DNA of 64,000 nt from Euphorbia lathyris (taxonomy: Eukaryota; Streptophyta; Magnoliopsida; Malpighiales; Euphorbiaceae): NCBI RefSeq assembly GCF_963576675.1, contig NC_088915.1, positions 38,593,501 through 38,657,500 of the forward strand. The letters are read 5' to 3'. Numbering within the stretch: position 1 is the first letter of the stretch; each line of letters begins with the position of its first letter. Position numbers and translations under genes: made by a program. This document shows, piece by piece, positions 11,367 through 61,322 of the stretch. The notes under the pieces are model-generated. The model saw only the letters and a list, made by a program, of their open reading frames with translations. It made no database searches and was not told the DNA's origin.

Positions 11367-11502
11367 GGTGAGGGGGAGTGAGTTAGATTTAGGAGAGAAT
11401 TAGGAAGTTGGAGTGAGTGTGAGGGAGGAGGGGAGGAAGAAATAAGGGTTTTAAATAGGTAGGGGGCTGGGAATCCAAGGGTTTTTCGGATTCCTAGGGG
11501 GG

Positions 11503-11681
11503 TACGTGGGGCGTGAAGGGGCCACGCCACGCGTATTCCACCTCCTGACCAATTTTTGGCCTAATAAGGCCAAGGCACGTGGGGCGTGTATGGGGGTACG
11601 CCCCGCGTACTTTGATCTCTGATCGAAAAGTGGTGGAAGGATGGACCACACGGGGGGCGTGCATGGAGCTACGCCCCGCGT
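11503..11681. repeat. Site cluster B, second copy: three pairs of ACGC…GCGT motifs
   Basis: Paired 11-bp motifs start at 11504/11524, 11577/11598 and 11650/11671. Within a pair the starts are 20-21 bp apart; pairs follow every 73 bp. The left motif is ACGYGGGGCGT-like and the right ACGCCCCGCGT-like, so each pair is also an inverted repeat. The same cluster occurs at 47802-47978. Confidence 0.85.
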
Positions 11682-12009
11682 AGAAGACGGAAGTTGAATA
11701 ATTTTTGCCGTTTTGTTAAAGATGTTTTTACTTTTTATGAGTTTTGATGGTTTTTAATTTTTATGGGTTTTAATGAGTAATTAAGGTGGTGATTAAATGA
11801 AAAATTAATGATGGAGGGAGGTTAATTTATTTTTGAATTTGAAATTAAAGGAGGTGATTGGTGGGAGAAGAGGTGGAGTGCAAAAATGGAGAAAGAAATG
11901 GGGAAATGGGAAAGGTGATGTGAGTGGTGGAAGAGAGAGGTGAAGTGTTAGGGTGGTGAATAGGGGGTAGGGTGTCATGGGGAGTTGATTTTCGCAACTC
12001 CCCAAGGAT

Positions 12010-12184
12010 ACGCGGGGCGTAGCATGGGGCACGCCCTGCGTAACCCTTTATTTTCAAGGAAGTTAGGGAACCGAAAGGGACGCAGGGCGTGGTATAGGGT
12101 ACGCCCCGCGTAACGTGCTTTTTAGCACGAAAAATTGAGCAGGAGCTCATCTACGCGGGGCGTACCGGAATGTACGCTCCGCGC
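12010..12184. repeat. Site cluster C, second copy: three pairs of ACGC…GCGT motifs
   Basis: Pairs start at 12010/12031, 12080/12101 and 12153/12174, each exactly 21 bp apart, with pair-to-pair spacing of 70 and 73 bp. Corresponds to 57711-57885 in the complete copy. Confidence 0.85.
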
Positions 12185-12442
12185 AGATGTTTGGATTAAA
12201 AATGGGATTTTTTTCTTCTTTTTTTTGGGTTTTATGATTTTTTTACGTTTTGGTGTGTATTTAAAAATGGATGAAACGTGAAAACCACAAGAAAACGAAA
12301 ACAATTGGAAAGAAGATGAAAATACACGCGAAGAAAAATTAATTTGAAAAACGTATATGATACATATAGATAAAAGGTTTGGAAAATGCAAACCGGGGCT
12401 ACGTTTATAGTCGTAGTAGCGCGACTTTCTCGGTGGGTGTGC

Positions 12443-13285
12443 TTATTGCAAGATATCCGAACCGGAGCTCAATGGATCCGAGCTGTGACTGTTAAGAAGA
12501 GTTATTGCTTGCCCGGATTCTCTATTCTTAGCCCGCGGGTTTTGCTCGGTATTGGTCGGGAGAGTTCCTAGATGTCTCTCCTGTTGTTGTCGGTTTAAAT
12601 GAGTCACTTGGTGACTTAAATCCCTGCAAAACACTTCATTGTCGGCAAGACGGGTTAAAATGTCCTTTAACAAGGAAGTTACCGATTGGCCTTGCACGTT
12701 GTTGGGAGGTTGGGCATTCCGACCGCCGGGGGCGTTTTGGGATTGGCCCAACCCATGCTCCCTATATTCTTGGTGGAACTCGGGTGGGGGCCTCAATACG
12801 TTATTGTTATTACCGTATGACAGATTAGGATGTTGGTATCGAGGTCTCCACCCATTATCGTTGTTATTGTGGTGGTTAGGATAGGAGTTTGAGTTAGAGT
12901 TGTACCTTTGGTTACCTCCTACGTAACTTACGTTCTCGGTATCACCGACAAAAGGGGTGCCGGTGTTGCAATTTCTTCCATCGTGATCACCACCACAATG
13001 GTTGCACATCAGGACCTGTGCATCTTTGTTGAGGCTCAATTGTGCTATTAAAGCGTCTAGTTTCTTGTTCATCTCAACCATGGAACCCTTTGAAGCCTCT
13101 TTTTCCATGGCGAACGCTTGATGTCTCGGGGGTCCGGCAAGCCGATCTTCTTGCCATTGAACGCTTTTTCTCGCGAGCTCATTAATGAGCTCATATGCTT
13201 CGCTTACTGATTTTTTGAACAGGTCCCCACCTACTGCGGAATCCATGGTAGCACGATTAATAGACGTTAAACCATGATAAAAAGT
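12443..13285 (-). pseudogene. gag: gag C-terminal half of Athila-like element (truncated)
   Basis: Nucleocapsid part of an Athila-type Gag. It contains the AYELINELARKSVQWQEDR stretch, the segment MNKKLDALIAQLSL and a zinc knuckle CNHCGGDHDGRNC (CX2CX3HX4C), followed by an Asn- and Gln-rich tail. The stop is at 12443. The open frame starts at 13246 and homology extends to about 13285 in another frame. The capsid half is lost at the junction with the CACTA-like sequence at 13292. The homologous gag at 58583-59562 retains the N-terminal half. Confidence 0.85.
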
Positions 13286-13292
13286 ACTTACA

Positions 13293-13840
13293 AGGTTAAT
13301 GAAATACTGTCATGACTAAAACGCTAAGATGACATAAATAAAAAATAGGATTGTCGTCTTACAATTAACGTAGTCAAATTTGATTCACTTTTATGACATT
13401 TGATTAAATGAAAAATGTCATGTGAAATCCACGCAAAAGACAAAAAATTTAAAGACAACGTCAACTCAAACATCTTTGAACGACAGCAACAAAGAGGAAA
13501 ACTATCGTCGTAACTTATATACAATGACACAAACAATAATAAAAAAATGTCGTATGACAATAAAACGGTCTATGGTTTTACATACTACAATAACGGTATA
13601 TATAAAAAAAAGCTATCATTAAAAATTATCCAATACTACGGTTTGTACAAAGTCGAACGTCGTTGTAACATGGAAAAGATGACAGACGCTTAGGAAGCGC
13701 GTGTCGCCTGTCGCTTCGAAAGATGATAGAACTCGACCGTCGTCTGATGCCTTATCAAACAGCAGCGAGCCCTGTGACAGATTTATATCGTGCGGGACGA
13801 CGGTTTTGAACCGTCGTCTGAAGAGGGTTTTGGCGTAGTG
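13293..13840. mobile_element. CACTA-like terminal fragment 1
   Basis: Ends GGTTTTGGCGTAGTG at 13840, the reverse complement of a CACTACGCCAAAACC terminal inverted repeat of the CACTA superfamily. Just inside lies a small palindrome GACGGTT-TTG-AACCGTC and many short TGACAT- and GACG-type subterminal motifs. The opposite end is missing; the left border at about 13292 is a junction with the Athila-like gag. Similar ends are at 21066 and, reversed, at 61686. Confidence 0.7.
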
Positions 13841-23051: not shown

Positions 23052-23259
23052 GTTGGGCGCGCGCCCAACCTTTCGTTGGGCGCTCGCCCAACGCTGTTGG
23101 GCGGCCGCCCAACTATTGTTGGGCGATCGCCCAACAATGTTGGGCGGCCGCCCAACATGCCTTGGGCGGCCACCCAACCCTCTTGGGCGACGCCCGATTT
23201 TGCTCGGGCGTCACCCATTCTCCCGGGGATCCGATTTCCTATAAAAGGCACGGATCCCC
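23052..23259 (+). promoter_or_regulatory. 5' LTR promoter: eight palindromes, 21-23 bp apart, plus TATA box
   Basis: Units GTTGGGCG-NN-CGCCCAAC start at 23052, 23075, 23096, 23118 and 23139 (all perfect 18-bp palindromes with variable centre), then degenerate ones at 23161, 23182 and 23203. TATAAAA is at 23240-23246, in the loop between GGGGATCCG (23225-23233) and CGGATCCCC (23251-23259). The spacing of about two helical turns puts all sites on one face of the DNA. Confidence 0.8.
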
Positions 23260-39839: not shown

Positions 39840-40091
39840 GTTGGGCGAGCGCCCAACAACGTCGGGCGAACGCCCAACCTTTCGTTGGGCGCTCGCCCAA
39901 CGCTGTTGGGCGATCGACCAACAAATTTTGGGCGGCCGCCCAACTATTGTTGGGCGATTGCCCAACAATGTTGGGCGATAGCCCAACGGAAGGTTGGGCG
40001 GCCGCCCAACCCTCTTGGGCGACGTCCGATTTTGCTCGGGCGTCGCCCATTCTTCCGGGGATCCGATTTCCTATAAAAGGCACGGATCCCC
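39840..40091 (+). promoter_or_regulatory. 3' LTR promoter: ten palindromes plus TATA box
   Basis: Units start at 39840, 39861, 39884, 39905, 39927, 39949, 39970, 39993, 40014 and 40035 (spacing 21-23 bp). TATAAAA at 40072-40078 lies between GGGGATCCG (40057-40065) and CGGATCCCC (40083-40091). Confidence 0.8.
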
Positions 40092-43118: not shown

Positions 43119-44635
43119 TGGTGTGCGTGGCGCCTAGGTAGAGCTTATGAAATATATATTATGATAAGTACGTTATGACTATGGATGTGATCTTCCTAAA
43201 TTCTCTATCTCTACTAGACACTACTACTTAGGGGCAAGTGTACCCCGTCGTATCAAGTAATAATACGATTAAGACCGGGTATTGAATCCACGGGATTTAT
43301 AACTACAAGTATTAAACGACTCGGTTTTATACGTTATATAAGCGGTGAATACTTTGGGTTGATTTGGGAAACAACTACAAACTACTCCTAACTATAGATG
43401 AGACAGATTTATATAACGAAAACTCTACGAAGTGATATGGATGGTGATAAGTTATAAGTGTGATAAACAATGACTCCAAATATATACGGTTAATGATTTA
43501 CTCTTGCAATGACGACTACGTGTAGTGTGACCGACCCGTGAAGTACTTAGACTACGTGGTTCCTAGTCAAGGCGTGTCTAATGCTTGGGATTAGAAATTA
43601 GGGCCCGTAAATTCTGTGGCTTGTCAATTCCTACGGTTTTCGGTGCGTCACTTCCGGTAGGGCAACACCTATATAAATCCCTAAAGATAGCCTGAATGGC
43701 GTCGAAAATCGCGTTCCCCTACACAATAATCAATTACAAATATCAAAACAAGTAGCAAGCATTAACACGTATAGAGAAAAAGAAATCGTAAATCATATGT
43801 TATAAATATGGAAAGCGTAAATAAGGAATACAACCAAGCCTAGTACATAGGAAGAGTACAAGCTAATTAGCAAGTGAAAAGGGAAGAATCCGCGATCGGA
43901 ACTAGCTAACCGGACTCAAGGCCATCTCTTAGGACTTGGAGGTGGAACTCTCGAGCTTGGTGAACGAAGATGGAACTTTGATGGAATGCCGGAATAAACG
44001 AACAAGCTCTCAAGGTGATAGAGTTTTGCTATGTAAAATCTGAATGTCTAAATGAGTGCTAATCACTCTTATTTATACACATCAAGTTAGGGGTAAAATT
44101 GTAATTTCATAAGATACAAGCATGGAGATACATTATTTCTGCAGAATTCCCATGACACGCCCCGCGTATGGTTGAGGACGCCCTGTGTATTGACCCATTT
44201 CGTCAATAATTTCTTGCATGTGGGCCAAATTCAGATCTTGTTGTCTCAACCACGCCCCGCGTAGACTGGGGTACGCCCCGCGTGGTGGTTCATACGCCTC
44301 GCGTATCAGTGGGAAAGTCCCACGTGGTGCTTGTGGATTGCTTAATCAGTTCTGACTAGATAACACGCCCTGCGTGGAGGTTGATACGCCCCGCGTATGT
44401 CGGTGGGATTTTGCTCCTTACTTGTACCTGAAATACAATTCTCGAGAGCCGAGTTAGCTTGACGTTTTATTTTCTAAATTTAATCAAAAATAAAGATAAT
44501 TAACCGAAAGTACGGATTTTATTTTTATTTTGTTATTTTATTAAAAACTCCTTATTTTTGTAATTAAACTTATTTATTTGGTCCTAAATTAAGCCGTAAA
44601 CCACGCTAAAAGATAGGGGCGAAACGTCCCTATCA
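43119..44635 (-). repeat. 3' LTR of the Athila-like element
   Basis: Plus strand starts TGGTGTGCGTGGCGCC and ends ACGTCCCTATCA. It contains seven ACGCCCCGCGT-type sites at 44157-44396. A possible purine tract borders it (minus strand GTCCGAGGAGGT, 44636-44647). Confidence 0.93.
44157..44396. repeat. LTR site group: ACGCCCCGCGT motifs 21 bp apart
   Basis: Motif starts: 44157/44178; 44252/44273/44294; 44365/44386. Every neighbour within a group is exactly 21 bp away. A degenerate eighth may lie at 44315. Confidence 0.85.
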
Positions 44636-46087
44636 ACCTCCTCGGACTTTAAAGTTTTACTTGTCCTCAAGTAAAAGAAGTCGAAAGACAAAGGATTGAG
44701 ATGATTAAGAAACAAACCTTCGATTAGTTTTACCAAGTGCGTGATTCCAAAACTAAAGTTTTACGCAAAGTTTTCGGCAAGTACCTATGCACACAAATGA
44801 GCGACCAAAACTTGTTTGAAACCTCCATGATCAAATTTAATAGGCAATATCAACGGGGGCTGATTATCTTTTGAGAACCCGAAAGTACCTCACCAAGGGA
44901 TTTCACTCTTACGCTCAAATCTTGGTGGGTCGGTGTTTTTGCACTCTCTTTTGCACTTACTTGAAGTCACTTTGATTTTGCATTTTCATCCGGGCTTTTC
45001 CTCCTATGTTATGGTCTAGGCAATATTAAAAATAAACCCGGATGGGGGTTGTAATGTGGATGGCTTTTTAGTGGTTAATTTTCTTATAGAAACTCGAGTT
45101 CAAACACCGTTTTGATGATTGCACCGTATTTTCATTTTGACCTTAGCGAGTTTGTAAAAGATAATTCGAAATTGCTCGGGTGGAGCTTGAAAATGCCTTT
45201 TTGCACTTTTTTGTTTCGAGAGTGGCACAAAAATGATTTCGAAAGCTTATGGTGCTTACTTGTCAAAGCCTTGGCTTGTTTTGGGTAATTCTTGTGCGAT
45301 TTGATTTTGTCGGTGATTGAACAAGAGGAAAAAGGGTTAAATGTTAAAAGGGTGTTTAGCAAAGAAGTTGGTTAATAGGCTCGAGGGGGTTTCCTAAAGG
45401 TTAATGAAAACGAGAAAAATAATTTAAGAAAAGAATTAGCCTAAGTGGGTTTGTTTTATCATCTATTGCCCTTTTTACCAAAATAAGTGTACTTAACCCG
45501 GTATTAGATGCAAACTCTATGAGTCGAGTGAAGTCAAAGCCCTCGAAAGGTTGTGAAAGACAATAGAGTTCTCGTACGAACTCTTTTAGGCTCAAAGATA
45601 CCTCACAAGAATTTCGGGTTATATTTTGTACTTTCGCATTCTTGCCAAACTTTCAACCATCCCGTTTTTATTGCCTTTTTAAATTTCATTATAAAGATAA
45701 CATGTGGGTTATGACTCAATGCTCTTGTTTAGTACGAACCTAGGCTTTGCATAAATTCTCAAACTTCAGAATCAAGACTAAAATTTCTTAATTAAACCGA
45801 TCCTTTGATTTAACGTCTTTACATTTAAGAACAAATAACGAAACTTTTAATTAATTTCCGAGGGAGGTAGTGTGTCGGAAAAATTTAAGAATCAATAAAT
45901 TAGTTTAATTATTTGATTTTTATTTTTGTTTTTGTTAGTGCAAAACAAACGGTGAGTGCGGGGTTGCATGGCCCTCCGCGTTTATTAAAATGACGTCTAT
46001 TCCAAGGACGTCGCAGAAGAAAAGAAAAACAAAAACAAAAAGAAAGATAGAATTTAAATTGAAAAAGGACCCTGGAGGTCAGGTCCT
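44636..46087 (-). other. 3' internal region of the Athila-like element; no gene seen
   Basis: About 1.45 kb between the 3' LTR and site cluster A. A 9-bp-stem hairpin (TTTTACTTG-TCCT-CAAGTAAAA, 44655-44676) lies beside the LTR. Only short frames, no recognisable domain. Confidence 0.6.
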
Positions 46088-46265
46088 ACGCGTGGCGTAC
46101 CCAGGGGGGCGCCCCGTGTAAGAGGTGCGTTTTAAGCAAATTGAGGCCAGAGACACGGATACGCGGAGCGCACTGAGAGGGGCGCTCCGCATGTTCCGAG
46201 TCCTAGGCCAGTTTGGGAGGTATAAGGTTGGGCACGCGAGGCGTAGAATGGGGCACGCGAGGCGT
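46088..46265. repeat. Site cluster A: three pairs of ACGC…GCGT motifs
   Basis: Pairs start at 46088/46109, 46161/46182 and 46234/46255: 21 bp within pairs, 73 bp between pairs. The first two are inverted repeats (with variants GCGCCCCGTGT and GCGCTCCGCAT); the third is two direct copies of ACGCGAGGCGT. Confidence 0.85.
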
Positions 46266-46525
46266 TCACATTATGAACGCATGCATAAACAGAAAAAAAA
46301 ACGAACATGGAAAGAAGAAATAAACAAAACCAAACACAAAGAAAAATCATAAGAAGGGGAAAGAGATAGATATATTAAAATAAAAAGAGAGTACAAGAAA
46401 AACATACAAGATAACAAAAACAAAAAAACATAAAAAACATAAAAAAAAACAAAACGAACTAAAAACATAAACACGAAAAGGAAAAACATAGAACAAAGAA
46501 AAACATAAAAAAAAACAAAGGGAAA

Positions 46526-47663
46526 CTAGGGTGGAGGAGGAGGATGCCCATGGATGTTGAAATGCGTGAAGAACGCGTTGGTGAAGGCGTCAAAATTGGC
46601 CCGATCCTCACGCCGTTGGGCCTCGATGGAATCAAAGCGGGTGGTGAAGGTGGAATGGTCCATGAGGCGATTAGCCTCAAGGGTATGGAAGCGGGTGGTG
46701 AGAGTGGCGTTGAGGTTGGCAAATTGAGAATCAAAGTGGGCGCGATCTTGACGTTGGTGGCCTTCCAAGGCGTCCAACCGGGCATATATGGAGTTGAAAT
46801 CGTGGTTGGGCGGTGGGCTAAAGTTTAGGCCCATGTCCGAGTCCGATCCCTCATCCTCGTGGGGTTGGGCCGCCCCCGAACTTTCACCTGGGCCAGAGGC
46901 AGGGCGCTGGAGTAATTTGAAGGCGTTTTTGTCCAAGGGTCGTGGCTCAAGGCTGGGAAGGTGGTCAAGGGCGGCAGAACCGAGAGCGGAGGTGGCAAAG
47001 ATTGTGATGAGATGGCCCAACCCGAGTTTGGCACGCTTCCGGGTGGGCATGGAGCGGAGGTTGAGGGCCACGAGGTAGGAGAGGTCGAAAGTGAGACCGT
47101 TTTCGCAGCAATAGAGGGCCAGAAGCTCGTGCTTATTGACCTTGGTGGCCTCGGACTTGCCCGAGAAGTAATAATTGATGAAGCGGTGGAGAAGTTGGAG
47201 GGTGGGATCGCGGATGCAACCCGGGCGGAGATTGGAGATGTCATAATCATCGGACCCGGTGATGGAGGTCCAAAAGTCACAAGGGGAGACACCCTCGGGC
47301 CAATGTGCTATACCGGCATCCGCTTGCATGGTGAAATGGTTACGGAGCCACTGTGTGTCGATGGAAAAGGGGCGGTTGTGAAGGCAGAAGTTGAAGAGGG
47401 CGGCACCGAGAACTCCATTAGAAGTGAGGGTGGTGTAGAACTCCAAGACCAACGAGGGATAAACGTGCTGGCGTGCACGAAAGTGATCGTGCCAATTGAG
47501 GGTACGGAGGCGACCCTCGAAAGGGAGCCCGATATTGGCGGGTTAGTGGCGGTGTTTCTTCTCGTTCGGGGGGTGGTGGTGATTGGTGTTGTTGGGAACG
47601 AGAAGAGCGGGACCGAGTGGACCGCGAGGGGCGGATATCGGCTACACGCTTGCTTCGAGTCAT
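46526..47663 (-). pseudogene. Athila-type ORF1-like protein
   Basis: Starts MTRSKRVADIRPSRS at 47663, then a frameshift near 47440, then 308 open codons (47452-46526). The body (SNGVLGAALFNFCLHNRPFS, HELLALYCCENGLTFDLSYL, LGLGHLITIFA) resembles the ATHILA ORF-1 family of plant retrotransposons; the last part has repeated segments like DALEGHQRQDRAHFDSQ, predicted coiled coil, and ends in polyproline. The function of this family is not known. It is flanked by site clusters A and B. Confidence 0.75.
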
Positions 47664-47801
47664 GATTTGGGAGGAGTGAGGAAGTTTGTATTAGGAATAT
47701 GGGGAGTTAGAGGGAGTGTAAGGGATGGAGTTAGGAAAAAAAGAAGAGTATATATAGGAAAGGGATGGAATTCCAAGGGATTCTCGGATTCCCAAGGGGG
47801 T

Positions 47802-47978
47802 ACGCGGGGCGTGAAGGGGCCACGCCACGCGTCCCCCACCTCCTGAGTTTTATTTAGTGCAAAATGCCGCAGCACGTGGGGCGTGCCTGGGAGCATGCCT
47901 CGCGTATCGCGCCTCCTAGCCAAAAACAAGTGGGAAAATGGCGAGGACGTGGGGCGTACATGGGGGTACGCCCCGCGT
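47802..47978. repeat. Site cluster B: three pairs of ACGC…GCGT motifs
   Basis: Pairs start at 47802/47822, 47874/47895 and 47947/47968; spacing between pairs is 72 and 73 bp. It lies just upstream of ORF1 on the minus strand. Confidence 0.85.
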
Positions 47979-48085
47979 GGAAGAAGGAAGTGGAAACATT
48001 TTTCGGTTTTTTCAAAGAGTTTTTAAAATTTTATGGATTTTAATTGGTGGTTAATGTTTTTATGATTTTTTTAAAGGGTAAATAA

Positions 48086-49939
48086 TGTTGGAAATTAGGC
48101 TAAGGTATAGCAGCGGAAATATAAAAATTTTAACCTATTTCCATTAACCCTAGGATCCGTTAATCGTTATTTCATATAAAGAGGGATAAGAAGAATTACC
48201 TTTTGGTGATCAATCTACCGTTGTTAATGAAGTGCCCACAACTCTTCTTCGAGTTCCCAAGCACGAAATAAAACACGGGAAGATTAAGTTAGAATCAACC
48301 GTTGAATAGCAACCAAAGTAGATTGCCTCTAATTAATCAACACAAGATCAAGGATAAAAGAAATAGATGAAATCAATTGATCGGAAGGAAGCCGTGGAAA
48401 ATCTCGTCCTCGAACTGGGGTGTCGAAATTTTCTCTCTCTTGCACTATAGGGGATTTCGAAAATCTCTCTAGGGTTTTGCACTCTTGGATTTCGAAAATC
48501 CTAAGGGAGCGGGTATTTATAATCTCTTGTATCTAATCCCTAGTTAGATAGAATTAGGTTACTGAATAGGAATTCAATTTGGAATAGAATTCCTAATTAT
48601 TATCTCATTATATATCTAATATATTAAGGATAATAATAATAACCTTATTGGATAATAATTTATAATCTAATTAAAACTCCTAACTTATTTATCTCTTAAT
48701 TAATTTAATTCATAATCCTAATCCAATTAGAATTAACAAAATCAAATTAATTATTCATGTATTTTACTACATGAATTTCGACCCCCCCCCTTGGTCCATG
48801 GGCCTTATTGGGCTCAATTGGGCTTCCATCAATTAATTAACATCTATCTCTCTTTTAGGTTCCAAGTCTTATGTGTGACCCATTAGGTTCTTATTGCTTC
48901 TAGCCGTATGCAACGTTATTAAATAATTTTCAAAGAATTATATTTAATCTTTGCATAACGGAATGATGTACAGAGTATGTGATTAGCAAGTCCGTAATCA
49001 TTCCCCCAGAGCCATAAGAAGACAGGTTGATTCTGTCGTTAACCTTTCCGTATTAGTTACAGTATAATTCGATCCTTTATCAACTACATCCTTGAACTGA
49101 ATCTTATGACTATGGATGATGTCAAGTCACATATAGCGAGACATTCGTTTTACTTGTACAGGCCGAGTCAACTCAAAAGATAGGTTAAGTGAAATCTGTA
49201 TTTCAAGTCTTAAGCTATCACCTTGCAAGGATTTAGAGTCGAGTCTTCCACAAGCGATCCTTGGATGTATCTCCCATTTATCGGGAGTGATAAATGCTCA
49301 ATCCAATATATAACGATCCCGCAATCACTTCCTGTGATACCCAACGTCTACTGTTCACACCCCAGAGTCATCTCTGTTAAGGATCGTGTTACACCAGAGT
49401 CAAAGCGTCACATTCCGTAATCCAGAATACCAATTAATATTCCTTTGAGTCTGAGGATTAGTTATACCTATTAATACCAATGAGATGAACAGGTGACAAG
49501 GATGAATCTACCCATCCTGTTATCTCAAATCGGATCCCCAATCCTAATGAACTACTTTTCATCGGATCCATGTAACTGTCCAGATATCTATATATATGAA
49601 GCTTATGAGATCAGCTTTCTGTCGGACAGAAGACATTGTTACATGCAAGTCTCAACAGTGATATATCAATCCTAAACATATCACTTGACTTGGGGTGGTT
49701 TTAAGTTTATTAGTTTATTATAAAGTTTTGTCTCACTTCATGCTTGTATGAACACTTTATAATCACTTTAAACAAACTTACGGATTTCCTTTTATTAGAC
49801 TTTATTTAGTGCTTAAAAGCGATTGCCTTTATATAGTTATAAAACATATATCTCATTAAAACAAATGATATAAAGAACAATTCATTTATATTAAGTTTGT
49901 ATCCTAGAACAATTGTCTATAGGACACTAAACCCCAACA
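48086..49939 (-). repeat. 3' LTR of the copia element
   Basis: 1854 bp. Next to it, the minus strand reads TCCAAGTGGGAGTA (49940-49953), a typical copia polypurine tract. Confidence 0.93.
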
Positions 49940-49953
49940 TACTCCCACTTGGA

Positions 49954-51552
49954 CTAAAGACAATTGTTTCTAAAACTTATCCCAGTAGAAGTTAAATGAT
50001 GATCATGTACTTTCTGGGGTAAGGGCTTTGTCAACGGATCTGCAACGTTGTCCTCTGTAGGTACTCTTTCTATTCTCACATCTCCTCTAGCCACAATCTC
50101 TCTTATGATGTGGTATCACTTAAGGTAATGCTTGGACGCATTATGAGATCGTGGTTCCTTTTCTTGCGCAATGGCTCCATTGTTATCACAATACAGTGTA
50201 ATGGGATTTACAATGTCAGGCACCACACCAAGTTCTGTAATGAACTTTCTAATCCAAACCGCTTCTGCAGCTGCGATATACTCTGACTCGGTCGTAGAGA
50301 AAGCTATGCTTCCCTGCTTGGAACTCTTCCAACTGACCGCGCCCCCATTCAAGATAAACAGGTATCCTGATTGGGATTTAAAATCATTCTCATCTGTGAG
50401 ATGACTTGCGTCTAAAAATCCTTCTATTTTCAGATCACCTTCTCCGTACACTAGGAACATATCTTTAGTTCTTCTCAAGTACTTAAGAATGTTCTTGACG
50501 GCAATCCAATGCTCGTCTCCCGGATTTCCTTGGTAACGACTCGTTACAGATAACGCGAACGCTACGTCAGGTCTAGTGCATAGCATAGAATACATAATCG
50601 AACCGATTGCGCTGGCGTACGGGACTACAGCCATGCGTCTTTTATCATCATCGGTTTTAGGACATTGATGATTGTTTAACTTTACTCCATGTAGCATGGG
50701 TAAGTTACCTCGTTTCGATTCAAGCATGCTAAACCGATTTAGCACCTTTTCAATGTATGTAGCCTGTGAAAGACAAAGCAGTCTTCTCGATCTATCTCTG
50801 TAGATCTTTATACCAAGTATATAAGCTGCTTCACCAAGGTCTTTCATTGAGAAGTTACCAGATAACCATACTTTAATCGACTGTAGTAGAGCAATGTCAT
50901 TTCCCATTAATAATATATCGTCCACATATAGTATGAGAAATGCTATAGAGCTCCCACTTGCTTTCTTGTAAATGCAAGCTTCTTCGCAATTTTGTTCGAA
51001 ACCAAATTGTTTTATGGTTTCGTCAAAATGCTTATTCCAGCTTCTTGATGCTTGCTTGAGTCCATAAATGGATCTCTGAAGTTTGCAAACTTTATTTGCA
51101 TCCTTCGATATGAAACCTTCAGGCTGCATCATATATACATCCTCAAGCAGGTTTCCATTTAGGAAAGCTGTTTTCACATCCATTTGCCAAATCTCATCAT
51201 CGAAGTGAGCGGCAATTGCAAGCATGATTCTGATTGATTTGTACATAGCCACAGGAGAGAAAGTTTCATCATAATCAATTCCTTTCTTCTGATGATATCC
51301 TTTCGCTACTAACCTAGCTTTGTAGGTGCTAACCTTTCCATCCATGTCTGTCTTCTTTTTGAAGATCCACCTGCACCCAATGGGTATTATCCCTTCGGGT
51401 GGATCAACCAAAGTCCACACTTGGTTAGTATACATGGAATCCATTTCAGAATCCATGGCCTCAAGCCATGCTTTAGAATCTGGACTAGTAAGAGCCTCTT
51501 CGTAGTTTTCAGGTTCGTCGTCTAACACGGGAACCTCATTATCATCTCCCAC
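49954..51552 (-). pseudogene. pol: Copia reverse transcriptase and RNase H
   Basis: RT begins after a PENYEEALTSPDSKAWLEAM linker; motifs ARLVAKGYHQKKGIDYDETF, QMDVKTAFLNG, YGLKQASRSWNKHF, catalytic LILYVDDILLMG (about 50920). RNase H: LDASH, SQSGYLFILNGGAVSWKSSK, STTESEYIAA, YCDNNGAI. A TGA at 50116 stands where Trp is expected; the same frame then continues 54 codons to a TAG at 49954 (VADPLTKPLP before the end). A frameshift near 51552 separates it from integrase. Nearly intact. Confidence 0.93.
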
Positions 51553-52200
51553 TAGAAAACCATATCTAACTGGGAGTTCACGAACTCTTTGTGATCTACG
51601 AATGGTGGCACTGGAGTCTCATCTAATGGGACTTCTTCGGGTACCTCAACCGCCTCTGTTGTTTCAGTCGGTGTTTCTTCTTCTTGAACTTCGTCAAGTT
51701 CAATCACGCTTCCCTTTTGTGTTTCTTCGAGAAACTCTTTCTCCAAGAAGGTTGCGTGTTTGGATACTATCACTTTCTGATCATCTAGATGATAGAAGTA
51801 ATATCCCACAGTTTCCTTAGGGTATCCAATGAAGAAACATTTATCAGATTTAGAATCTAGTTTGTCGGACGCAATGCGTTTGACAAATGCTGAACAACCC
51901 CATACTCTCATGAATGAGAACACGAGTTTCCTACCAACGAACAATTCATGTGGTGTGGAACTAGCGGATTTAGTTGGTACTCGATTTAGGGTGAAGATGG
52001 CAGTTTCTAAGGCATAGCCCCAGAACGTCTTTGGACGTAAGGCCATGCTCATCATGGATCGTACCATATCTAGTAAGGTACGGTTTCTCCTCTCGGATAC
52101 ACCATTGTGTTGTGGTGTATAGGGAGGTGTCCATTGTGAGCATATCCCACATTCAGTTAGATAATTCAGAAAATCATCTGAAAGATATTCGCCACCTCGA
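51553..52200 (-). pseudogene. Copia integrase, core and C-terminal part
   Basis: From about 52215 a shifted frame gives LRSDRGGEYLSDDFLNYL and PYTPQHNGVSERRNRTLL (catalytic Asp and Glu of the DDE core), then FGYALETAIFTLNRVPTK, GCSAFVK and FIGYPKETVGYYFY of the C-terminal part, then an acidic linker to RT. Joined to the previous segment by a one-base frameshift at about 52215. Confidence 0.88.
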
Positions 52201-53844
52201 TCAGATCGAAGCGTTTCCTAATTGATTTTCTACTTCATTCTTGAAGCATTTGAATTTCTCAAAAGCTTCTGATTTGTGTTTCATCAAGTAGATGTAACCA
52301 TATCGGGTATGGTCATCTATGAAGCTTATGAAGAATCTGAATCCTCCTCTTGCTTGGACTGACATAGGACCGCATACATCTGAATGAATGAGTCCTAGAT
52401 TGTCTGATACACGCTCACCTTTATTGCTAAAGGGTGTCTTTATCATTTTACCTTTTAAACATGATTTGCATGTTTCCAATGATTCGGGATCGATTGGATC
52501 TATAAGCCCATCTGAATGTAGCTTTAGCATGCGTCTCTTGTTTATATGGCCTAAACGACAATGCCACAAGTAAGTTGAATTATCTAGCTTATGTCTTTTG
52601 GTATCAATTGCAAAAACAGGAATTTTGTCGTCTAACACATAAATCCCATTTTGTGATATTCCTGAAAAATAAAAGATCGAATCTTTATAAAAATTGCAAC
52701 TCTTGTCTTTTATCGAAATATGAAAACCGTCGTCAACAAGACAGCTAATAGAAATAATGTTGCGAGACATTTGAGGAACGTATAAACAATTCCTTAATTC
52801 TATTACAAGCCCAAAGGGCAAATTCAAAACATAATCTCCAATTGCGAGGGCGGCAACTCTTGCTCCATTTCCCACTCGCAAGTTTACGCTTCCTTTCTTT
52901 AGTTCCTTAGTCTGTTTTAGCTCCTGCATATTTGTACAAATATGAGATCCACATCCGGTATCAAGTACCCAAGATTCAGACTGTGAAACTGTATTTATTT
53001 CAATATAAAACATACCAGATGTTGAAGCACCGCCATTTCCCTTCTTGAGGGAGGCTAGGTACTCCTTGCAGTTCCTCTTCCAATGCCCGTCTTTACCACA
53101 GAAGTGGCACTCTCCTTTGGGCTTCTTCACTTCATTTCCCTTAGTTTTGTTGGGCACGGCTTTCTTACCTTTCTTGCGATATTTAGGATTGGGATAATTC
53201 CCTTTCCTCTTATTTGATCCCTCAATGACAAGAGCCGATATGGCTTTGTCTTTCTTCATATTGGGCTCAACTGACTTGAGCATATTTGCAAGCTCTTCAA
53301 GAGAGGTTTGCAAGTCATTCATCTGATAGTTCATGATGATCTGTGAATAACTCTCTGGGAGGGATTGAAGAATTAAGTCTATGCTTAATTCGTTATCCAT
53401 CGCGAATCCAATACTTGAAAGTTTGATAATATAGCCAATCATCTTGACACAATGTGTCATGACAGATGTGCCCTCTTGCATCCTGCAACGATATAGCAAC
53501 TTGGATATCTCGTAGCGTTCGCACCTAGTCTGTTTCCCAAACAGCTCTTTAAGGTGCATGATGATGGAATAGGCATCCATTTCCTCATGTTGCCTTTGTA
53601 ATTTCGGTGTCATCGATGCAAATATGATGCATCCGGCATGATCATCATCAGCCTTGTGCTTCTGGTAAGCATCAATTTCCTCAATGGGAGCATCATCAGC
53701 AGGGATAGGGGGTATCGTTGTATCAAGTACATACTCTATCTTATCGAACTTCAAAACAATTTTGAGGTTACGAAACCAGTGGGTGAAGTTTGAACCATTC
53801 AATTTGTTATCGGTAAGAATGTTTTGCAGATTGGTTTTAGTCAT
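52201..53844 (-). pseudogene. gag: Copia gag, protease and integrase N-terminus
   Basis: Start chosen at ATG 53844 (MTKTNLQNILTDNKLNGSNF). Gag core with QSLPESYSQIIMNY, knuckle CHFCGKDGHWKRNC (about 53110), protease active site WVLDTGCGSHIC (about 52965), integrase zinc-binding HCRLGH…CKSCLKGK (about 52550-52450) and first catalytic Asp in LIHSDVCGP. It runs into a stop at 52201 after a frameshift. Order gag, protease, integrase as in all copia. Confidence 0.93.
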
Positions 53845-55675
53845 GATTTTAAGAGTGTGTTTAATTAAACCTGAGAGTGAGAAAGAGTAAATGTATGTCA
53901 TTCATTTGCTTAAAGTATATCAATCTAAAATTATAGGCCTTTTAGTTTATTTTAGATTGCTCCCACTATTTTGCCAAATTAATAGCCCTCCATATTAATT
54001 CGAAGAATTTCACAAATCCTTTAGTGAGCTAGGATCCTAACTCCTAAGATTTCGCCTTGAGTTTGCTCAACAAGCTAGTCTCATTCGTTAGGTAGATTCA
54101 TGTAATCAATCACATCTTTAATGTGATTCCTAGGTTATTGGGTTACTAACCACATTAGTAACTAATATGCTATTCACATTAATCCCAACCATATTGCCCA
54201 TTAGTTTATGACAACATGAGTTTGCTCATCCAATTATCATAATCTAATTTAAGTATTACCCCATATTCATGAAAAGTAATTTTCGATAATTCAGGTGTTA
54301 CCGTAAGACCCCGAGCTTGAGTTTGCTGAACAACCCAAAGGCCCCCAGTATTGCCGGCTGAATTATAATATTAGGGAGGGGCAACCGATTTTAATAACTT
54401 GTTTATTTACTTAACTTTTTAATGAGGGATTTTATTTTAGGTCTCATAATCTAACTTAGTCTTGATTTGCTTTAGCATACATCAGACACATACATTCACA
54501 TACATTGGCGTTATGGACATATCATCTAAATTATTCCGTCGAGCTAGAGACGGAATAAAAGGGCAAACCTAAGGAAATACTAACTATTACATATTTCTCT
54601 TTAGGTCCTCCGTCTTCTCCATGGCGCCTTGAAATTACATATTAATTTCTATACTACTAAAGAAAACTTCAATTGAATTGAAGGGAATCAGATGAGAGGA
54701 GAAATTACAATAGATAGTAGAAAGGCAGGACTCGCAGGCCCTATTTCAAAAATACCAAAAGACTAAAAGAGGGTCCAAATATGTCCATAACTCCAAACAT
54801 GCATAGACTCAATTAAATAAATTTAATTGGTTGATTACATAACTATTTTATGTAATATTTATGTTAATCACATTAACTTATCAAATTAACTTTCATCCAA
54901 TTTTACTTCTAATAGTTTCGTATCTTTTATATTAATTTTTAGATTAATATAACTATACAAAACTTTAATTATGCACGTCCCAATTATTTTGATTTTAATT
55001 CATTTAACATTTTGATTTACAAATTGGTAAAACAAACTTTTAAACAAATTTTCATTCGATAATCAAAACAGAAAACTATCAATTTCTGAAACATATATAT
55101 TTAAATATATATAAAAACCGATTTTAAACAATTTAAAATTCAAGTGGGTCTCGGGCCGGGGCCGAGAGTGGGCTGCTGCCGATTGGCAGCAGCCCTAGGG
55201 CTGCTGAACCGCCGCTGCCTTGCAGCAGCGGCGGCCAGGCGCCGCACGTGGTTGCTGCCGCGAGGCAGCAGCCGCGCGACAGCGGCTTGTCGCGCCGCGA
55301 GGCGCGACTCGGGCTGCTGTCGTATTTATTTTTTTTATAATAACAATTTTAAATATATATATCAGTTCTAAAACGGTTTTAAAACGATTTTCAGAAAATA
55401 GGAAAATCTACTATATATTTCCGTTTTATCTTTAGAATTAATAAAACTGATTTTATCAATCTAACTATAAAACTAATAGATTTTTGTTATAATGATTATC
55501 AACCAAAATAATTAGGAACATACGCATAATCTATTTTAATTAACAATTAATTAAAACTTATTTATCTTTAGAATCAATTAATCAAAACAATTTGTTAATT
55601 AATCCTAACTATAAATATTTATTCAATCCTATTGAAAACTTCTAAATTTTCATATATGAAATAACGGATTTAACG
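53845..55675 (-). other. Copia 5' leader
   Basis: 1.8 kb between PBS and gag, AT-rich and without a convincing ORF, except for one sharply GC-rich patch (55141-55325) with stacked hairpins. Confidence 0.7.
55170..55306 (-). promoter_or_regulatory. Cluster of five GC-rich hairpins in the copia leader
   Basis: Perfect or near-perfect stems: 55170-55195 (11 bp, 4-nt loop), 55209-55234 (10 bp), 55253-55270 (7 bp, 4-nt loop), 55275-55294 (7 bp), 55291-55306 (6 bp, 4-nt loop; overlaps the previous one). They lie about 390-520 nt downstream of the 5' LTR in an otherwise AT-rich leader. Packaging or translation control is possible but unproven. Confidence 0.6.
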
Positions 55676-55690
55676 ATGGCTCTGATACCA
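55676..55690 (-). other. Primer-binding site of the copia element (initiator Met tRNA)
   Basis: Minus strand TGGTATCAGAGCCAT, one base from the 5' LTR. This is the standard plant copia PBS matching initiator methionine tRNA. Confidence 0.95.
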
Positions 55691-55691
55691 C

Positions 55692-57537
55692 TGTTGGAAA
55701 TTAGGCTAAGGTATAGCAGCGGAAATATAAAAATTTTAACCTATTTCCATTAACCCTAGGATCCGTTAATCGTTATTTCATATAAAGAGGGATAAGAAGA
55801 ATTACCTTTTGATGATCAATCTACCGTTGTTAATGAAGTGCCCACAACTCTTCTTCGAGTTCCCAAGCACGAAATAAAACATGGGAAGATTAAGTTAGAA
55901 TCAACTGTTGAATAGCAACCAAAGTAGATTGCCTCTAATTAATCAACACAAGATCAAGGATAAAGAAATAGATGAAATCAATTGATCGGAAGGAAGCCGT
56001 GGAAAATCTCGTCCTCGAACTGGGGTGTCGAAATTTTCTCTCTCTTGCACTATAGGGGATTTCGAAAATCTCTCTAGGGTTTTGCACTCTTGGATTTCGA
56101 AAATCCTAAGGGAGCGGGTATTTATAATCTCTTGTATCTAATCCCTAGTTAGATAGAATTAGGTTACTGAATAGGAATTCAATTTGGAATAGAATTCCTA
56201 ATTATTATCTCATTATATATCTAATATATTAAGGATAATAATAATAACCTTATTGGATAATAATTTATAATCTAATTAAAACTCCTAACTTATTTATCTC
56301 TTAATTAATTTAATTCATAATCCTAATCCAATTAGAATTAACAAAATCAAATTAATTATTCATGTATTTTACTACATGAATTTCGACCCCCCCCCCTTGG
56401 TCCATGGGCCTTATTGGGCTCAATTGGGCTTCCATCAATTAATTAACATCTATCTCTCTTTTAGGTTCCAAGTCTTATGTGTGACCCATTAGGTTCTTAT
56501 TGCTTCTAGCCGTATGCAACGTTATTAAATAATTTTCAAAGAATTATATTTGATCTTTGCATAACGGAATGATGTACAGAGTATGTGATTAGCAAGTCCG
56601 TAATCATTCCCCCAGAGCCATAAGAAGACAGGTTGATTCTGTCGTTAACCTTTCCGTATTAGTTACAGTATAATTCGATCCTTTATCAACTACATCCTTG
56701 AACTGAATCTTATGACTATGGATGATGTCAAGTCACATATAGCGAGACATTCGTTTTACTTGTACAGGCCGAGTCAACTCAAAAGATAGGTTAAGTGAAA
56801 TCTGTATTTCAAGTCTTAAGCTATCACCTTGCAAGGATTTAGAGTCGAGTCTTCCACAAGCGATCCTTGGATGTATCTCCCATTTATCGGGAGTGATAAA
56901 TGCTCAATCCAATATATAACGATCCCGCAATCACTTCCTGTGATACCCAACGTCTACTGTTCACACCCCAGAGTCATCTCTGTTAAGGATCGTGTTACAC
57001 CAGAGTCAAAGCGTCACATTCCGTAATCCAGAATACCAATTAATATTCCTTTGAGTCTGAGGATTAGTTATACCTATTAATACCAATGAGATGAACAGGT
57101 GACAAGGATGAATCTACCCATCCTGTTATCTCAAATCGGATCCCCAATCCTAATGAACTACTTTTCATCGGATCCACGTAACTGTCCAGATATCTGTATA
57201 TATGAAGCTTATGAGATCAGCTTTCTGTCGGACAGAAGACATTGTTACATGCAAGTCTCAACAGTGATATATCAATCCTAAACATATCACTTGACTTGGA
57301 GTGGTTTTAAGTTTATTATAAAGTTTTGTCTCACTTCATGCTTGTATGAACACTTTATAATCACTTTAAACAAACTTACGGATTTCCTTTTATTAGACTT
57401 TATTTAGTGCTTAAAAGGGATTACCTTTATATAGTTATAAAACATATATCTCATTAAAACAAATGATATAAAGAACAATTCATTTATATTAAGTTTGTAT
57501 CCTAGAACACTTGTCTATAGGACACTAAACCCCAACA
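55692..57537 (-). repeat. 5' LTR of the copia element
   Basis: 1846 bp; plus-strand borders TGTTGGAAATTAGG and ACCCCAACA. A run of C (about 56387-56396) is shared with the other LTR. Confidence 0.94.
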
Positions 57538-57710
57538 ATTAAAAGGGTGGTTAAGGCAAAATTAATGTAGAGGGAAGTTGAAGAATTTTAAATTTTGAAA
57601 AGAAGTGATGGGATTGGAGGTGAGAGGAGGTGGAGTGTGGAAGTGGGAAAAATGTTTGGGGAAGAGAAAAAGGTGGTATGGGGAGTTACAATTCGCAACT
57701 CCCCGAGGAC

Positions 57711-57885
57711 ACGCGGGGCGTAGAATGGGGCACGCCCCGCGTGGCCTTTTATTTCTGGTTGTGAATGGGCTGGTCCAAGGACGCGGGGCGTGAAGGGTAC
57801 GGCGCCCCGCGTATCCATGCATTTGAGTAAAAAATGAGATCAGAAACTTGGCTACGCGGGGCGCACTGGTGCGTACGCTCCGCGT
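57711..57885. repeat. Site cluster C: three pairs of ACGC…GCGT motifs
   Basis: Pairs start at 57711/57732, 57781/57802 and 57854/57875, each exactly 21 bp apart; pair spacing 70 and 73 bp. The first pair is a perfect 11-bp inverted repeat (ACGCGGGGCGT and ACGCCCCGCGT). It lies downstream of gag on the minus strand. Confidence 0.87.
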
Positions 57886-58582
57886 ATTTGTTTTGGATTA
57901 ATGAGGGATTTGTTTTTTCGTAGTTTTTATTAATTTAAAAGAAACGAGATGAGCTTAAAAGAAAAACAAACGAAAATAAGAATTTGAAAGGAAAAGGAAA
58001 GTGATATATGAAGAAAATAGAAATAAGGGGAAAACGGATATAATACATATACACAAATGGGTTTGAGAAATGCAAACCGGGGCTATGTTTAGAGTCAGAG
58101 TAGCTCGACTTTCTCTTGTGGTGGCTTATTGCAGGCTGTCTGAGTTAGAACTCGATGGGTCCGAACTTCTACTGTTAAGGAGAGTTATTGCTTATCCGGA
58201 CTCTCTATTTTTGGCCCGCGGGTTTTGCTCGGTGTTTGTCGGGAGAGTTCCTAATTGCCTTTCCTATTGTTGACGATTCAAATGGGCTACCTGGTGGCTT
58301 AGGTCCCTGCAAAACACCTCACTATCGGCAAGACGGGTTAGGATGTCCTTTAACAAGGAAGTTACCGATTGGCCATGCACGTTGTTGGGAGGTTGAGTGT
58401 TCCGACCTCCGGGCATGGTTTGTGATTGCCCTAGCCCATTTTCCCTATATTCTTGATGAAAGTCGGGTGGGCCTCAATACATTACTGTTATTACCGTACG
58501 ACAAGTTAGGGTGTTGGTATCGAGGTCTCCACCCGTTATCATTATTATTGTGGTGGTGTGAATAGGAGTTCGGGTTAGGGTT
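57886..58582 (-). other. Spacer after Athila-like gag
   Basis: About 700 bp between site cluster C and the gag stop. The part from about 58066 on resembles the 3' end of gag in the other copy (12386-12780) but is broken by frameshifts; the rest shows no feature. Confidence 0.5.
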
Positions 58583-59562
58583 TTACCTTTGATTGCCTCC
58601 TACGTAACTTACATTTTTGGTGTCACCGGCGAAAGGGCTACCGGCATGGCAATTAAGTCTGTCATGATCTCCACAACAGTGATTGCACATCAGGACCTGT
58701 GTAGCTTTGTTGAGGCTCAACTGTGCTATCAAAGCGTCTAGTTTCTTATTCATTTCTGTCATGGAACTTTTTGGAGCCTCTTTCTCCACGGCGAACGTTT
58801 GATGTCGCGGGGGTCTGGCAAGCCGATCTTCTTGCCACTGTACGCTTTTCCTTGCGAGCTCGTGGATGAGCTCATATGCTTCGCTGGCCGATTTCCTAAA
58901 CAGGTCCCCACCTGCTGCGGAATCCATGGTAGCACGGTTAGTAGGCGTTAATCCGTGATAAAAAAAGTACTTACCAGATCGTGCTTGGGGATATCGTGGT
59001 GCGGTCAGCTTCGAAGCAACTTTCGGAATCTCGCCCAAGCCGCATGGAGGGCTTCGTGTTCGAGTTGCCGAAAGGAAGTGATATCGTTCCTCAACTTAAC
59101 CGTTTTGGACGGCGGGAAGTAGTAGGAAAGGAACTCCTTCTCAAGCTCCTCCCATGATGTGATTGATCCCGCCTCCAACGAGTGCAACCACTCCAACGCT
59201 TGTCCTGTCAATGAGAAAGGAAACAACTTTAGTCAGACGGCCTCAACCGGAACACTGTTTTGCCGAGAAGTTTTGGCACACATAAGAAATTTATCGAGAT
59301 GTTCGTTAGGGTTTTCACGGGGCTCCCCTCCGAATTGACCAAGTTGTTGGATCAGTTGGGTCATGCTAGTCTTTATTTCATATGTGTTAGCCGGAATGGT
59401 GGTAACAATGTTTCCGTTGCGATTTTGAGGGCGATGCGGAGCAAGAATCTCCATCATTGTCCGGTTGTCATTTCCACCTCTATTGCGGTTGTTGTTCACG
59501 GGTTGAATAGGTGGCCCTTGGTTGGTCTCGGGTTGGTTAACTTCATTGTTGAGGTTGGCCAT
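58583..59562 (-). pseudogene. gag: gag of the Athila-like element
   Basis: Start MANLNNEVNQPETNQG at 59562. N-terminal part with FGGEPRENPNEHLDKFLMC; capsid with FPFSLTGQALEWLHSLEAGS and ITSWEELEKEFLSYYFPPSK; then the AYELIHELARKSVQWQEDR stretch and knuckle CNHCCGDHDRLNC at about 58690. Breaks: TGA at 59233 (CGA expected), TGA at 59005, and a frameshift at a T run (about 58965). The homologous copy at 12443 is open in this last region. Encodes only structural protein. Confidence 0.88.
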
Positions 59563-59782
59563 TTTCTCTCTCCGAATCCTACAAAGAGTACGTTCAATTT
59601 CAAGATCAATAGGAACGAGAGTATCACTCCGAGATCAGGTGTGCATACAATAAAATAAATAAATAGAGAAATTATAAACAAGAAAGAATGTTGTTAGTAA
59701 AAAGTGTATATAAACAATTTATACAAAGATAATGCTTAGACTAACAATAAAACGTTTTTCTAATATTGCAAGAAATTATAAA

Positions 59783-59800
59783 TCCTCGGCAACGGCGCCA
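59783..59800 (-). other. Primer-binding site of the Athila-like element
   Basis: Minus strand TGGCGCCGTTGCCGAGGA, next to the 5' LTR. It differs at one base from the aspartate-tRNA PBS common in Athila elements. Confidence 0.88.
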
Positions 59801-59806
59801 AAAACT

Positions 59807-61322
59807 TGGTGTGCGTGGCGCCTAGGTAGAGCTTATAAAATATATATTATGATAAGTACGTTATGACTATGGATGTGATCTTCCTAAATGCTCTATCTCT
59901 ACTAGACGCTACTACTTATAGGCAAGTGTACCCCGTCGTATCAAGTAATAATCCGGTTAAGACCGGGTATCGAATCCATGGGATTTATAACTACAAGTAT
60001 TAAACGACTCGGTTTATACGTTATCTAAGAGGTGAATACTTTGGGTTGATTTGGGAAACAACTACAAACTACTCCTAACTATAGATGAGACAGATTTATA
60101 TAACGAAAACTCTACGAAGTGATATGGATGGTGATAAGTTATAAGTATGATAAACAATGACTCCAAATATATACGGTTAATGATTTACTCTTGCAATGAC
60201 GACTACGTGTAGTGTGACCGACCTGTGAAGTACTTAGACTACGTGGTTCCTAGTCAAGGCGTGTCTAATGCTTGGGATTAGAAATTAGGGCCCGTAAGTT
60301 CCGTGGCTTGTCAATTCCTACGGTTTCCAGTGCGTCACTTCTGGTAGGGCAATACCTATATAAATCCCTAAAGATAGCCCGAATGGCGTCGAAAATCGCG
60401 TTCCCCTACACAATAATCAATTACAAATATCAAAACAAGTAGCAAGCATTAACACGTATAGAGAAAAAGAAATCGTAAATCATATGTTATAAATATGGAA
60501 AGCGTAAATATGGAATACAACCAAGCCTAGTACATAGGAAGAGTACAAGCTAATTAGCAAGTGAAAAGGGAAGAATCCGCCCTCGGAACTAGCTAACCGG
60601 ACTCAAGGCCGTCTCTTAGGACTTGGAGGTGGAACTCTCGAGCTTGGTGAACGAAGATGGAACTTTAACGGAATGCCAGAATAAACGAACAAGCTCTCAA
60701 GGTGATAGAGTTTTGCTATGTAAAATCTGAATGTCTAAATGAGTGCTAATCACTCTTATTTATACACATCAAGCTAGGGGTAAAATTGTAATTTCATAAG
60801 ATACAAGCATGGAGATACATTATTTCTGCAGAATTCTCATGACACGCCCCGCGTATGGTTGAGGACGCCCCGCGTATTGACCCATTTCGTCAATAATTTC
60901 TTGCATGTGGGCCAAATTCAGATCTTGTTGTCTCAACCACGCCCCGCGTAGACTGGGGTACGCCCCGCGTGGTGGTTCATACGCCTCGCGTATCAGTGGG
61001 TAAGTCCCACGTGGTGCCTGTGGATTGCTTAATCAGTTCTGACTAGATAACACGCCCCGCGTGGAGGTTGATACGCCCCGCGTATGTCGGTGGGATTTTG
61101 CTCCTTACTTGTACCTGAAATACAATTCTCGAGAGCCGAGTTAGCTTGACGTTTTATTTTCTAAATTTAATCAAAAATAAAGATAATTGACCGAAAGTAC
61201 GGATTTTATTTTTATTTTGTTATTTTATTAAAAACTCCTTATTTTTGTAATTAAACTTATTTATTTGGTCCTAAATAAAGCCGTAAACCACGCTAAAAGA
61301 TAGGGGCAAAACGTCCCTATCA
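59807..61322 (-). repeat. 5' LTR of the Athila-like element
   Basis: 1516 bp, nearly identical to 43119-44635. ACGCCCCGCGT sites start at 60844/60865, 60939/60960/60981 and 61052/61073, again exactly 21 bp apart within groups. Confidence 0.93.

Follow-up and report, generated by a model that had tools for sequence, protein, structure and literature searches.

Here, we report on a stretch of 64,000 nucleotides (nt) from Euphorbia lathyris (contig NC_088915.1, positions 38,593,501 to 38,657,500), in the following called the window, in which an Athila-type Ty3/gypsy retrotransposon lies on the minus strand and is interrupted by a nested Ty1/copia element. Both long terminal repeats (LTRs) of the Athila-type element and three internal clusters, termed arrays A, B and C, carry a short palindromic site in regular spacing. 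As far as sequence can tell, this system is real, strongly patterned and probably cis-regulatory. Our preferred explanation, to which we assign a probability of about 0.6, is that the arrays are helically phased sites (a 13-base-pair (bp) dyad with a half-site of approximately SGCGTR) of a dimeric, sequence-specific DNA-binding activator, which would serve two promoters. The U3 array, which lies shortly before the TATA box, would drive the genomic RNA, and array B, upstream of an internal TATA-like box, would drive a separate gene in env position, the ATHILA open reading frame 1 (ORF-1). Arrays A and C have no TATA box of their own and would probably be extra enhancer modules.

Palindromic site arrays of the Athila-type element

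An 11-bp near-palindrome, ACGC-CCC-GCGT, was described in the original prediction as occurring seven times in each LTR and as three pairs in each of the arrays A, B and C. A motif scan finds all of these sites, and also confirms the only pair with starts 20 bp instead of 21 bp apart, which is located in array B (47802/47822). The extent given for the system, 43119-61322, does contain these clusters, but two further ones lie outside, at 11504-11681 and 12010-12184. They represent arrays B and C of a second, truncated Athila copy (11284-13294), which is 72-78% identical to the window element, ends at a copia LTR end at 11284 and at other sequence near 13294, and adds 12 sites. With up to two mismatches, ACGCCCCGCGT matches the window 45 times compared to 6.3 expected matches, and none of 100 shuffles reaches 45. 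The window element itself holds 31 sites at this threshold, or 32 if a degenerate member of array A at 46182 (three mismatches) is included.

The minus strand is taken as the sense strand because of the gag frames and a probable primer-binding site: the sequence adjoining 59807 starts with TGGCGCC, which we take to be of the primer-binding-site type. The sense order is thus LTR - gag - C - B - ORF-1 - A - LTR. Arrays B and C are in fact only about 0.3 kb apart, because the copia element is nested between them. The features are as follows:

59807..61322 (-): 5' LTR (in sense) of the Athila-type element; aligns to 43119-44635 over 1517 columns with 97.5% identity; GTAGC on either side of the element
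60844..61083 (-): LTR array, seven sites on a single strand, from the motif scan
60757..60764 (-): TATA box of U3, TATAAATA, 79 nt past the array
59781..59800 (-): probable primer-binding site, read from the sequence
58264..59634 (-): gag region in several broken frames; the homologous frame L062:6181-7773 matches Retrotrans_gag (PF03732)
57711..57885 (-): array C, three inverted pairs
48086..57537 (-): nested Ty1/copia element, outside the array system; LTR pair 98.9% identical; RVT_2
47802..47978 (-): array B, three inverted pairs; the candidate ORF-1 promoter follows downstream
47751..47756 (-): internal TATA-like box (TATATA), 45 nt past array B
46526..47663 (-): ATHILA ORF-1 gene; ATG at 47663, 138 nt past array B
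46088..46265 (-): array A with three pairs; follows ORF-1 in sense direction
44157..44396 (-): LTR array, seven sites on a single strand, with three C-to-T site differences to the other LTR
44070..44077 (-): TATA box of U3, TATAAATA, 79 nt past the array
43119..44635 (-): 3' LTR in sense orientation, from the LTR-LTR alignment
12443..13246 (-): second copy, gag remnant, without a Pfam match of its own; aligns to the gag of the window element
12010..12184 (-): second copy, array C
11504..11681 (-): second copy, array B; TATTTAAA follows at 46 nt and an ATG at 137 nt downstream

Beyond the window, the host genome (1.02 Gb, both strands) contains 41,448 exact ACGCCCCGCGT sites compared to 158 for a reversed-pattern control. 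Exact inverted pairs at 21 bp number 711, compared to none in the control. The bare 32-bp pattern was also found in 47 stretches of viral contigs; with 16 fixed bases, chance matches are expected in that much DNA. Further analyses are based on 24 stretches (248 kb including the window), which were picked for holding sites or to extend such stretches. 15 of them, 9.9 kb each, cover the sites that were listed for contig C1 over its first 3 Mb, two further stretches extend L064 and L065, and six more surround exact inverted pairs farther along C1. In 13 of the 15 stretches the array lies within sequence that aligns to the window element, the exceptions being L057 and L068. The six stretches around further inverted pairs were checked for a non-Athila context, and all six proved to be Athila. 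With up to two mismatches, each of the seven stretches with LTRs at both ends holds 37-40 sites.

The 333 aligned sites give the 13-bp consensus YACGCCcCGCGTR (Y-ACGC-C-c-C-GCGT-R), with the outer Y at 0.88 and the outer R at 0.97. This profile was derived from the LTR, A, B and C alignments, with sites taken by position and no mismatch filter on the counted copies; the reference copy was excluded and gapped rows were removed. Both half-sites are about equally conserved, and substitutions are mainly transitions. In the original prediction, the half-site CCGCGT was tentatively likened to the CGCG box of calmodulin-binding CAMTA factors. If host CAMTA factors read the sites, the element would be calcium- or stress-responsive. 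The CGCG box has the consensus vCGCGb and is bound by the CG-1 domain, and CCGCGT indeed fits it. The left half ACGC, in contrast, falls outside the box although it is about as conserved as the right one, and a single box has no need of dyad symmetry. Even with a CGCG box in U3 of the tomato retrotransposon Rider (PMC6762207), we consider CAMTA factors very unlikely to account for the arrays.

Spacing, helical phase and conservation

With at most one mismatch, the 24 stretches comprise 424 sites, and 419 of these have a neighbour within 130 bp. Among the 176 pairs within 45 bp, 146 are spaced at exactly 21 bp and 19 at 20 bp. A check of the spacing in other family members had been proposed along with the original prediction; run in part, on these stretches, it yields a non-random arrangement. 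The pairs also follow a rule of polarity, with 83 pairs of +/+, 73 of -/+, 20 of -/- and none of +/- orientation. When two mismatches are allowed, the 21-bp pairs are distributed in the same order as 97, 85, 23 and 0. Within the window, all LTR sites point in one direction, the pairs of B and C are inverted with fixed polarity, and the third pair of A is direct.

The unit of the arrays consists of two sites two helical turns apart (32 bp). From unit to unit, the distance is mostly a whole number of turns (52, 73 and 84 bp), and for this reason bound proteins would align on one face of the DNA. Calculated from the window together with the first 15 stretches, at distances of 15-250 bp, phasing reaches R = 0.78 at a period of 10.4 bp, but only 0.05 at 9.5 bp and 0.16 at 11 bp; over the 42 distance classes the resultant at 10.4 bp is 0.85. 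The earlier suggestion of protein sites on one DNA face is supported by this phasing, by a conservation that is stronger in motifs than in spacers, and by the placement of arrays before TATA boxes. Mean column identity of motif and spacer amounts to 0.927 and 0.763 in array B (six copies), 0.845 and 0.583 in array C (eight copies), and 0.886 and 0.746 in the LTR array (23 copies). The 3' and the 5' LTR of the window element differ three times within motif sites. All three differences are of the C-to-T type, as would be expected for methylated, silenced copies.

The spacers had been described as not conserved, which needs to be qualified: within one array, the 41-bp spacers of adjacent units keep 43% identity (22 comparisons) as opposed to 26% in shuffles. 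An old tandem duplication of a 73-bp unit is therefore probable. One could go further and regard the arrays as a passive by-product, a duplicated unit that was copied along with the element and has no function. Besides the spacer identity, a tandem-repeat probe of lettuce that contains the motif (PMC11598091) is in agreement with such an origin. Yet the motif columns, CpGs included, were kept while the spacers of the same units decayed, and the same motif and spacings appear in a probable LTR without alignment to that of Athila, so that we regard a purely passive origin as quite unlikely.

The inverted pairs might also form RNA or DNA hairpins, acting in packaging, as a source of small interfering RNA or as a cruciform, and structured RNA was one of the options put forward earlier. 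Array C folds far better than its shuffles (z = -6.9), as any inverted repeat would, and pairing is kept in nine of ten double changes. However, shuffles keep pairing in 7.2 double changes on average, and 559 of 2000 reach nine. The 61 distinct inverted pairs comprise 671 cells, of which 623 are paired compared to a shuffle mean of 620.6, a value of 623 being reached by 397 of 2000 shuffles. The arms of these pairs vary independently, with neither excess pairing nor excess compensation. The LTR array consists of direct repeats and folds like its shuffles (z = -0.85). Hairpins were rejected on these grounds, and we hold them to be a highly improbable function of the arrays. An Rfam search of the window gave no match.

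Promoter context, ORF-1 and a second LTR family

A TATA box, TATAAATA in every case, lies 77-80 nt downstream in sense direction of 23 out of 27 one-strand arrays. Arrays were classed by flanking words, and the class of array B is therefore independent of its TATA. All 12 B arrays (8/8 and 4/4) are followed by a TATA-like box at 41-47 nt and by an ATG at 137-146 nt, although in L081 the box is present only as TATTTATA. ORF-1 starts at this ATG. Activation through the arrays and use of the internal TATA-like box would fit this order of elements.

Apart from this, inverted repeats were observed 6-8 nt from the last site of arrays B and C. The one just after array B, GGGAATCC...GGATTCCC, occurs in several copies and is imperfect in the window (47767-47793); the one just after array C, GGGGAGTTG...CAACTCCCC, lies at 57680-57704 in the window. 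Such repeats are also found in L058, L060, L062, L066, L069 and L070.

ORF-1 is intact with 390-419 codons in four out of eight copies, and L082 has 420 codons. The frame of L077 is still open where the stretch ends, while L079 and L081 stop at 35 and 81 codons, respectively. The frame of the window element has a stop after 81 codons; a 308-codon piece is located at 46526-47452. In all six pairwise comparisons among the four intact copies, the ratio of nonsynonymous to synonymous substitution rates (dN/dS) is 0.15-0.25, which points to purifying selection and thus to coding constraint. The Pfam family ATHILA ORF-1 (PF03078, cut-off 20.2 bits) is matched by L058 (30.4 bits), L066 (27.3) and L082 (28.4), and the window piece stays just under the cut-off with 19.0 bits; a frame of L062 searched alongside does not match PF03078. 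ORF-1 also matches Transposase_32 below cut-off. Pfam matches are limited to these two families and include no known DNA-binding domain. Comparison with PDB sequences gave no match at E<=1, and a large protein collection contained no relatives of the window piece at E<=0.001. In a single-sequence structure prediction of this piece, the mean predicted local distance difference test score (pLDDT) is 47, and a long C-terminal helix alone is confident.

A comparable arrangement was noticed at L061:5415-8100 (-), where a Ty1/copia element (RVT_2) carries a Transposase_32 ORF in env position. Upstream of this ORF are several repeats that resemble TGCTGAGTG, along with a TATA box, perhaps another internal promoter. 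Its protein shows no BLASTP likeness to ORF-1, although both match Transposase_32 (ORF-1 below cut-off).

A probable LTR is common to L057 and L068 (85.7% identity over 1445 columns); its start at TGTTGGCC was located by eye, and no paired LTR was seen. It does not align to the Athila array region. In L057, a single short segment (5195-5300) away from the array aligns to the window element, and the downstream gag frame is 30% identical to the Athila gag over 135 columns. The arrays of L057 and L068 hold seven and ten sites with spacings of mainly 21 and 52 bp, and are followed by TATAAATA at 156 and 195 nt, respectively. This suggests that one site code is common to LTR families whose LTRs do not align. 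Since a probable LTR unrelated to that of Athila has the same arrays, a host factor seems the likelier binder.

Arrays of another kind belong to a different gypsy family, of which three probable LTRs in the window (8426-8486, 23052-23178 and 39840-40010) carry palindromes near GTTGGGCGNNCGCCCAAC at intervals of 21-23 bp. TATAAA follows 62 nt past the last palindrome of the two longer arrays, inside an inverted repeat GGGGATCCG...CGGATCCCC.

Athila copies with arrays come in two kinds. L072 together with L065 shows the order LTR (with array) - gag - protease - reverse transcriptase - RNase H - integrase - one A-type array - LTR (with array), without ORF-1, B and C. The combination of L064 and L071 follows this order as far as array A and is cut off there. 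Array-bearing copies with gag, RVT_1, RNase H and then integrase hence exhibit the Ty3/gypsy-type order. Five of the seven stretches with two LTRs (L058, L062, L066, L069 and L070) resemble the window element in having gag, C, B, ORF-1 and A, and the other two (L059 and L067) have neither ORF-1 nor B. None of the seven contains a pol frame of at least 220 codons.

Both kinds might form a two-component retrotransposon, in which a pol-bearing (LTR-gag-pol-array A-LTR) and a pol-less partner (LTR-gag-C-B-ORF1-A-LTR) share the array code and the ORF-1 protein is an array-binding trans activator or anti-silencer. In the manner of the VANC proteins of VANDAL transposons, this protein of the pol-less elements would bind the arrays of both partners as well as its own promoter array and would remove or block DNA methylation, with the unrelated LTR family mimicking the sites. 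ORF-1, expressed from its own array-driven internal promoter, would then be the retrotransposon counterpart of VANC, and an unrelated LTR family would have copied VANC-like sites. In agreement with this, ORF-1 appears to be under purifying selection although its carriers show no pol frame, its promoter region carries an array, arrays are also present on gag-pol copies without ORF-1, and Arabidopsis VANC6 is described to act on an unrelated element with the same motifs (PMC5735166). On the other hand, ORF-1 has neither a known DNA-binding domain nor a PDB match at the threshold given above, and the motif CpGs in the 3' LTR of the window element have C-to-T changes compared to the 5' LTR, as in ordinary silenced copies. 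We consider the two-component arrangement, and likewise the VANC-like anti-silencing that it implies, unlikely but still credible.

Several points weigh against the phased sites of a dimeric activator that we favour. The strand of a site is called from its three central bases, and 72 windows read +/- at up to three mismatches per site. The phase test gives p of approximately 8e-5 for 13 intervals other than 21 bp, hand-listed per array type, but p of approximately 0.14 if it is run on the five distinct non-21 intervals only. One interval of array C (59 bp; 49 bp in the window) is off-phase. Moreover, site intervals are not independent, because they are inherited, partly through the old tandem duplication, from which part of the array regularity may stem. 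Retention of CpGs in motif and spacer (LTR 0.88 vs 0.61, B 0.90 vs 0.54, C 0.87 vs 0.48, A 0.76 vs 0.52) was determined with near-consensus reference sites, which favours the motif; the comparison of column identities is less biased. With respect to promoters, four of the 27 one-strand arrays have no TATA box at 77-80 nt (L056, an Athila remnant; array A of the window; L057; L068), and TATAAA, TATATA or TATTTAA is found within 180 nt on the sense side in none of the eight C and none of the eight A arrays classed. Three arrays of Athila copies fall outside the flanking words and are not counted here (C of L062, A of L067 and A of L070); array C of L062 has a looser TATAT 82 nt downstream. Finally, the stretches were selected via the sites and represent a non-random sample, from which the share of array-less family members is not derivable.

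Two further features of the window are mentioned for completeness. An ORF with a Plant mobile domain (PF10536, 74 bits) at 36727-37500 (-) lies antisense to the gag-pol frames of a gypsy element at approximately 22.6-42.4 kb, and tandem arrays with units of 44, 50, 64 and 46 bp at 6505-7822 adjoin gypsy pol sequence.

Comparison with known systems

The closest known system is the repeated-motif (RM) boxes of Sireviruses (Bousios et al. 2010, PMC2829016). There, a short palindrome occurs in 8-32 copies per element, in the LTR shortly before the TATA box and, in elements that possess an env gene, also upstream of this gene. The boxes are CpG-rich, have a CGG-CCG core in 12 out of 13 cases, and were proposed to be promoter elements; an internal promoter could not be identified conclusively by the authors. 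The Athila arrays agree with this in having at least eight copies of a palindrome (31 in the window element, 37-40 in the two-LTR stretches), an LTR cluster before the TATA box (23 of 27 one-strand arrays) and a second cluster upstream of the gene in env position (array B before ORF-1, 12 of 12). The Sirevirus clusters form CpG islands; the Athila arrays have a CpG observed/expected ratio of 1.06-1.29 at a GC content of 0.55-0.64, but the rest of the element also comes to a ratio of 0.88-1.07.

There are also clear differences. Sireviruses are Ty1/copia elements, whereas the elements studied here are Ty3/gypsy elements of the Athila type according to PF03078 and the order of gag, RVT_1, RNase H and integrase. 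The core is ACGC-GCGT with an odd CCC centre instead of CGG-CCG. Pairs at a fixed 21 bp in helical phase and a rule of polarity set the Athila arrays apart, spacing being absent from the parts of PMC2829016 that were compared. The same holds for the occurrence of the motif in a further probable LTR family and for the TATA-like box and ATG after array B.

VANC21 and VANC6 recognise the non-palindromic motif YAGTATTAY in VANDAL transposons, and here the binder is known and encoded by the transposable element itself (Hosaka et al. 2017, PMC5735166). A dense short motif in non-coding parts, often within tandem repeats, and its occurrence in an unrelated element are common to both systems. VANDAL elements, however, carry a VANC protein, whereas the VANC domains DUF1985 and DUF287 were not found in ORF-1 of L058, L066 and L082 at E<=0.01. 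The LTR of tomato Rider (PMC6762207), likewise from a plant LTR retrotransposon, has a CGCG-type element in U3, but neither a palindromic array nor pairing is mentioned in the text compared. The lettuce probe Oligo-ls350 for fluorescence in situ hybridization, designed from the lettuce genome, contains GTACGCGGGGCGT and thus the same site; it is a 43-base probe from a tandem repeat, and the compared text of PMC11598091 never mentions Athila. A literature search, which largely missed subscription journals, found no description of such arrays in Athila.

Taken together, the Athila arrays appear to be a variant of the RM arrangement known from Sireviruses, which here occurs in another superfamily and includes helical phasing and a candidate internal promoter. 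Whether the env-position gene of a plant retrotransposon has a promoter of its own was a question left open for Sireviruses in 2010. The succession of array, TATA-like box and ATG in 12 of 12 B arrays, in front of a constrained gene, offers a directly testable case for such a promoter, and the array itself provides a naturally repeated 32-bp bait for finding the protein that would switch on an abundant plant element.

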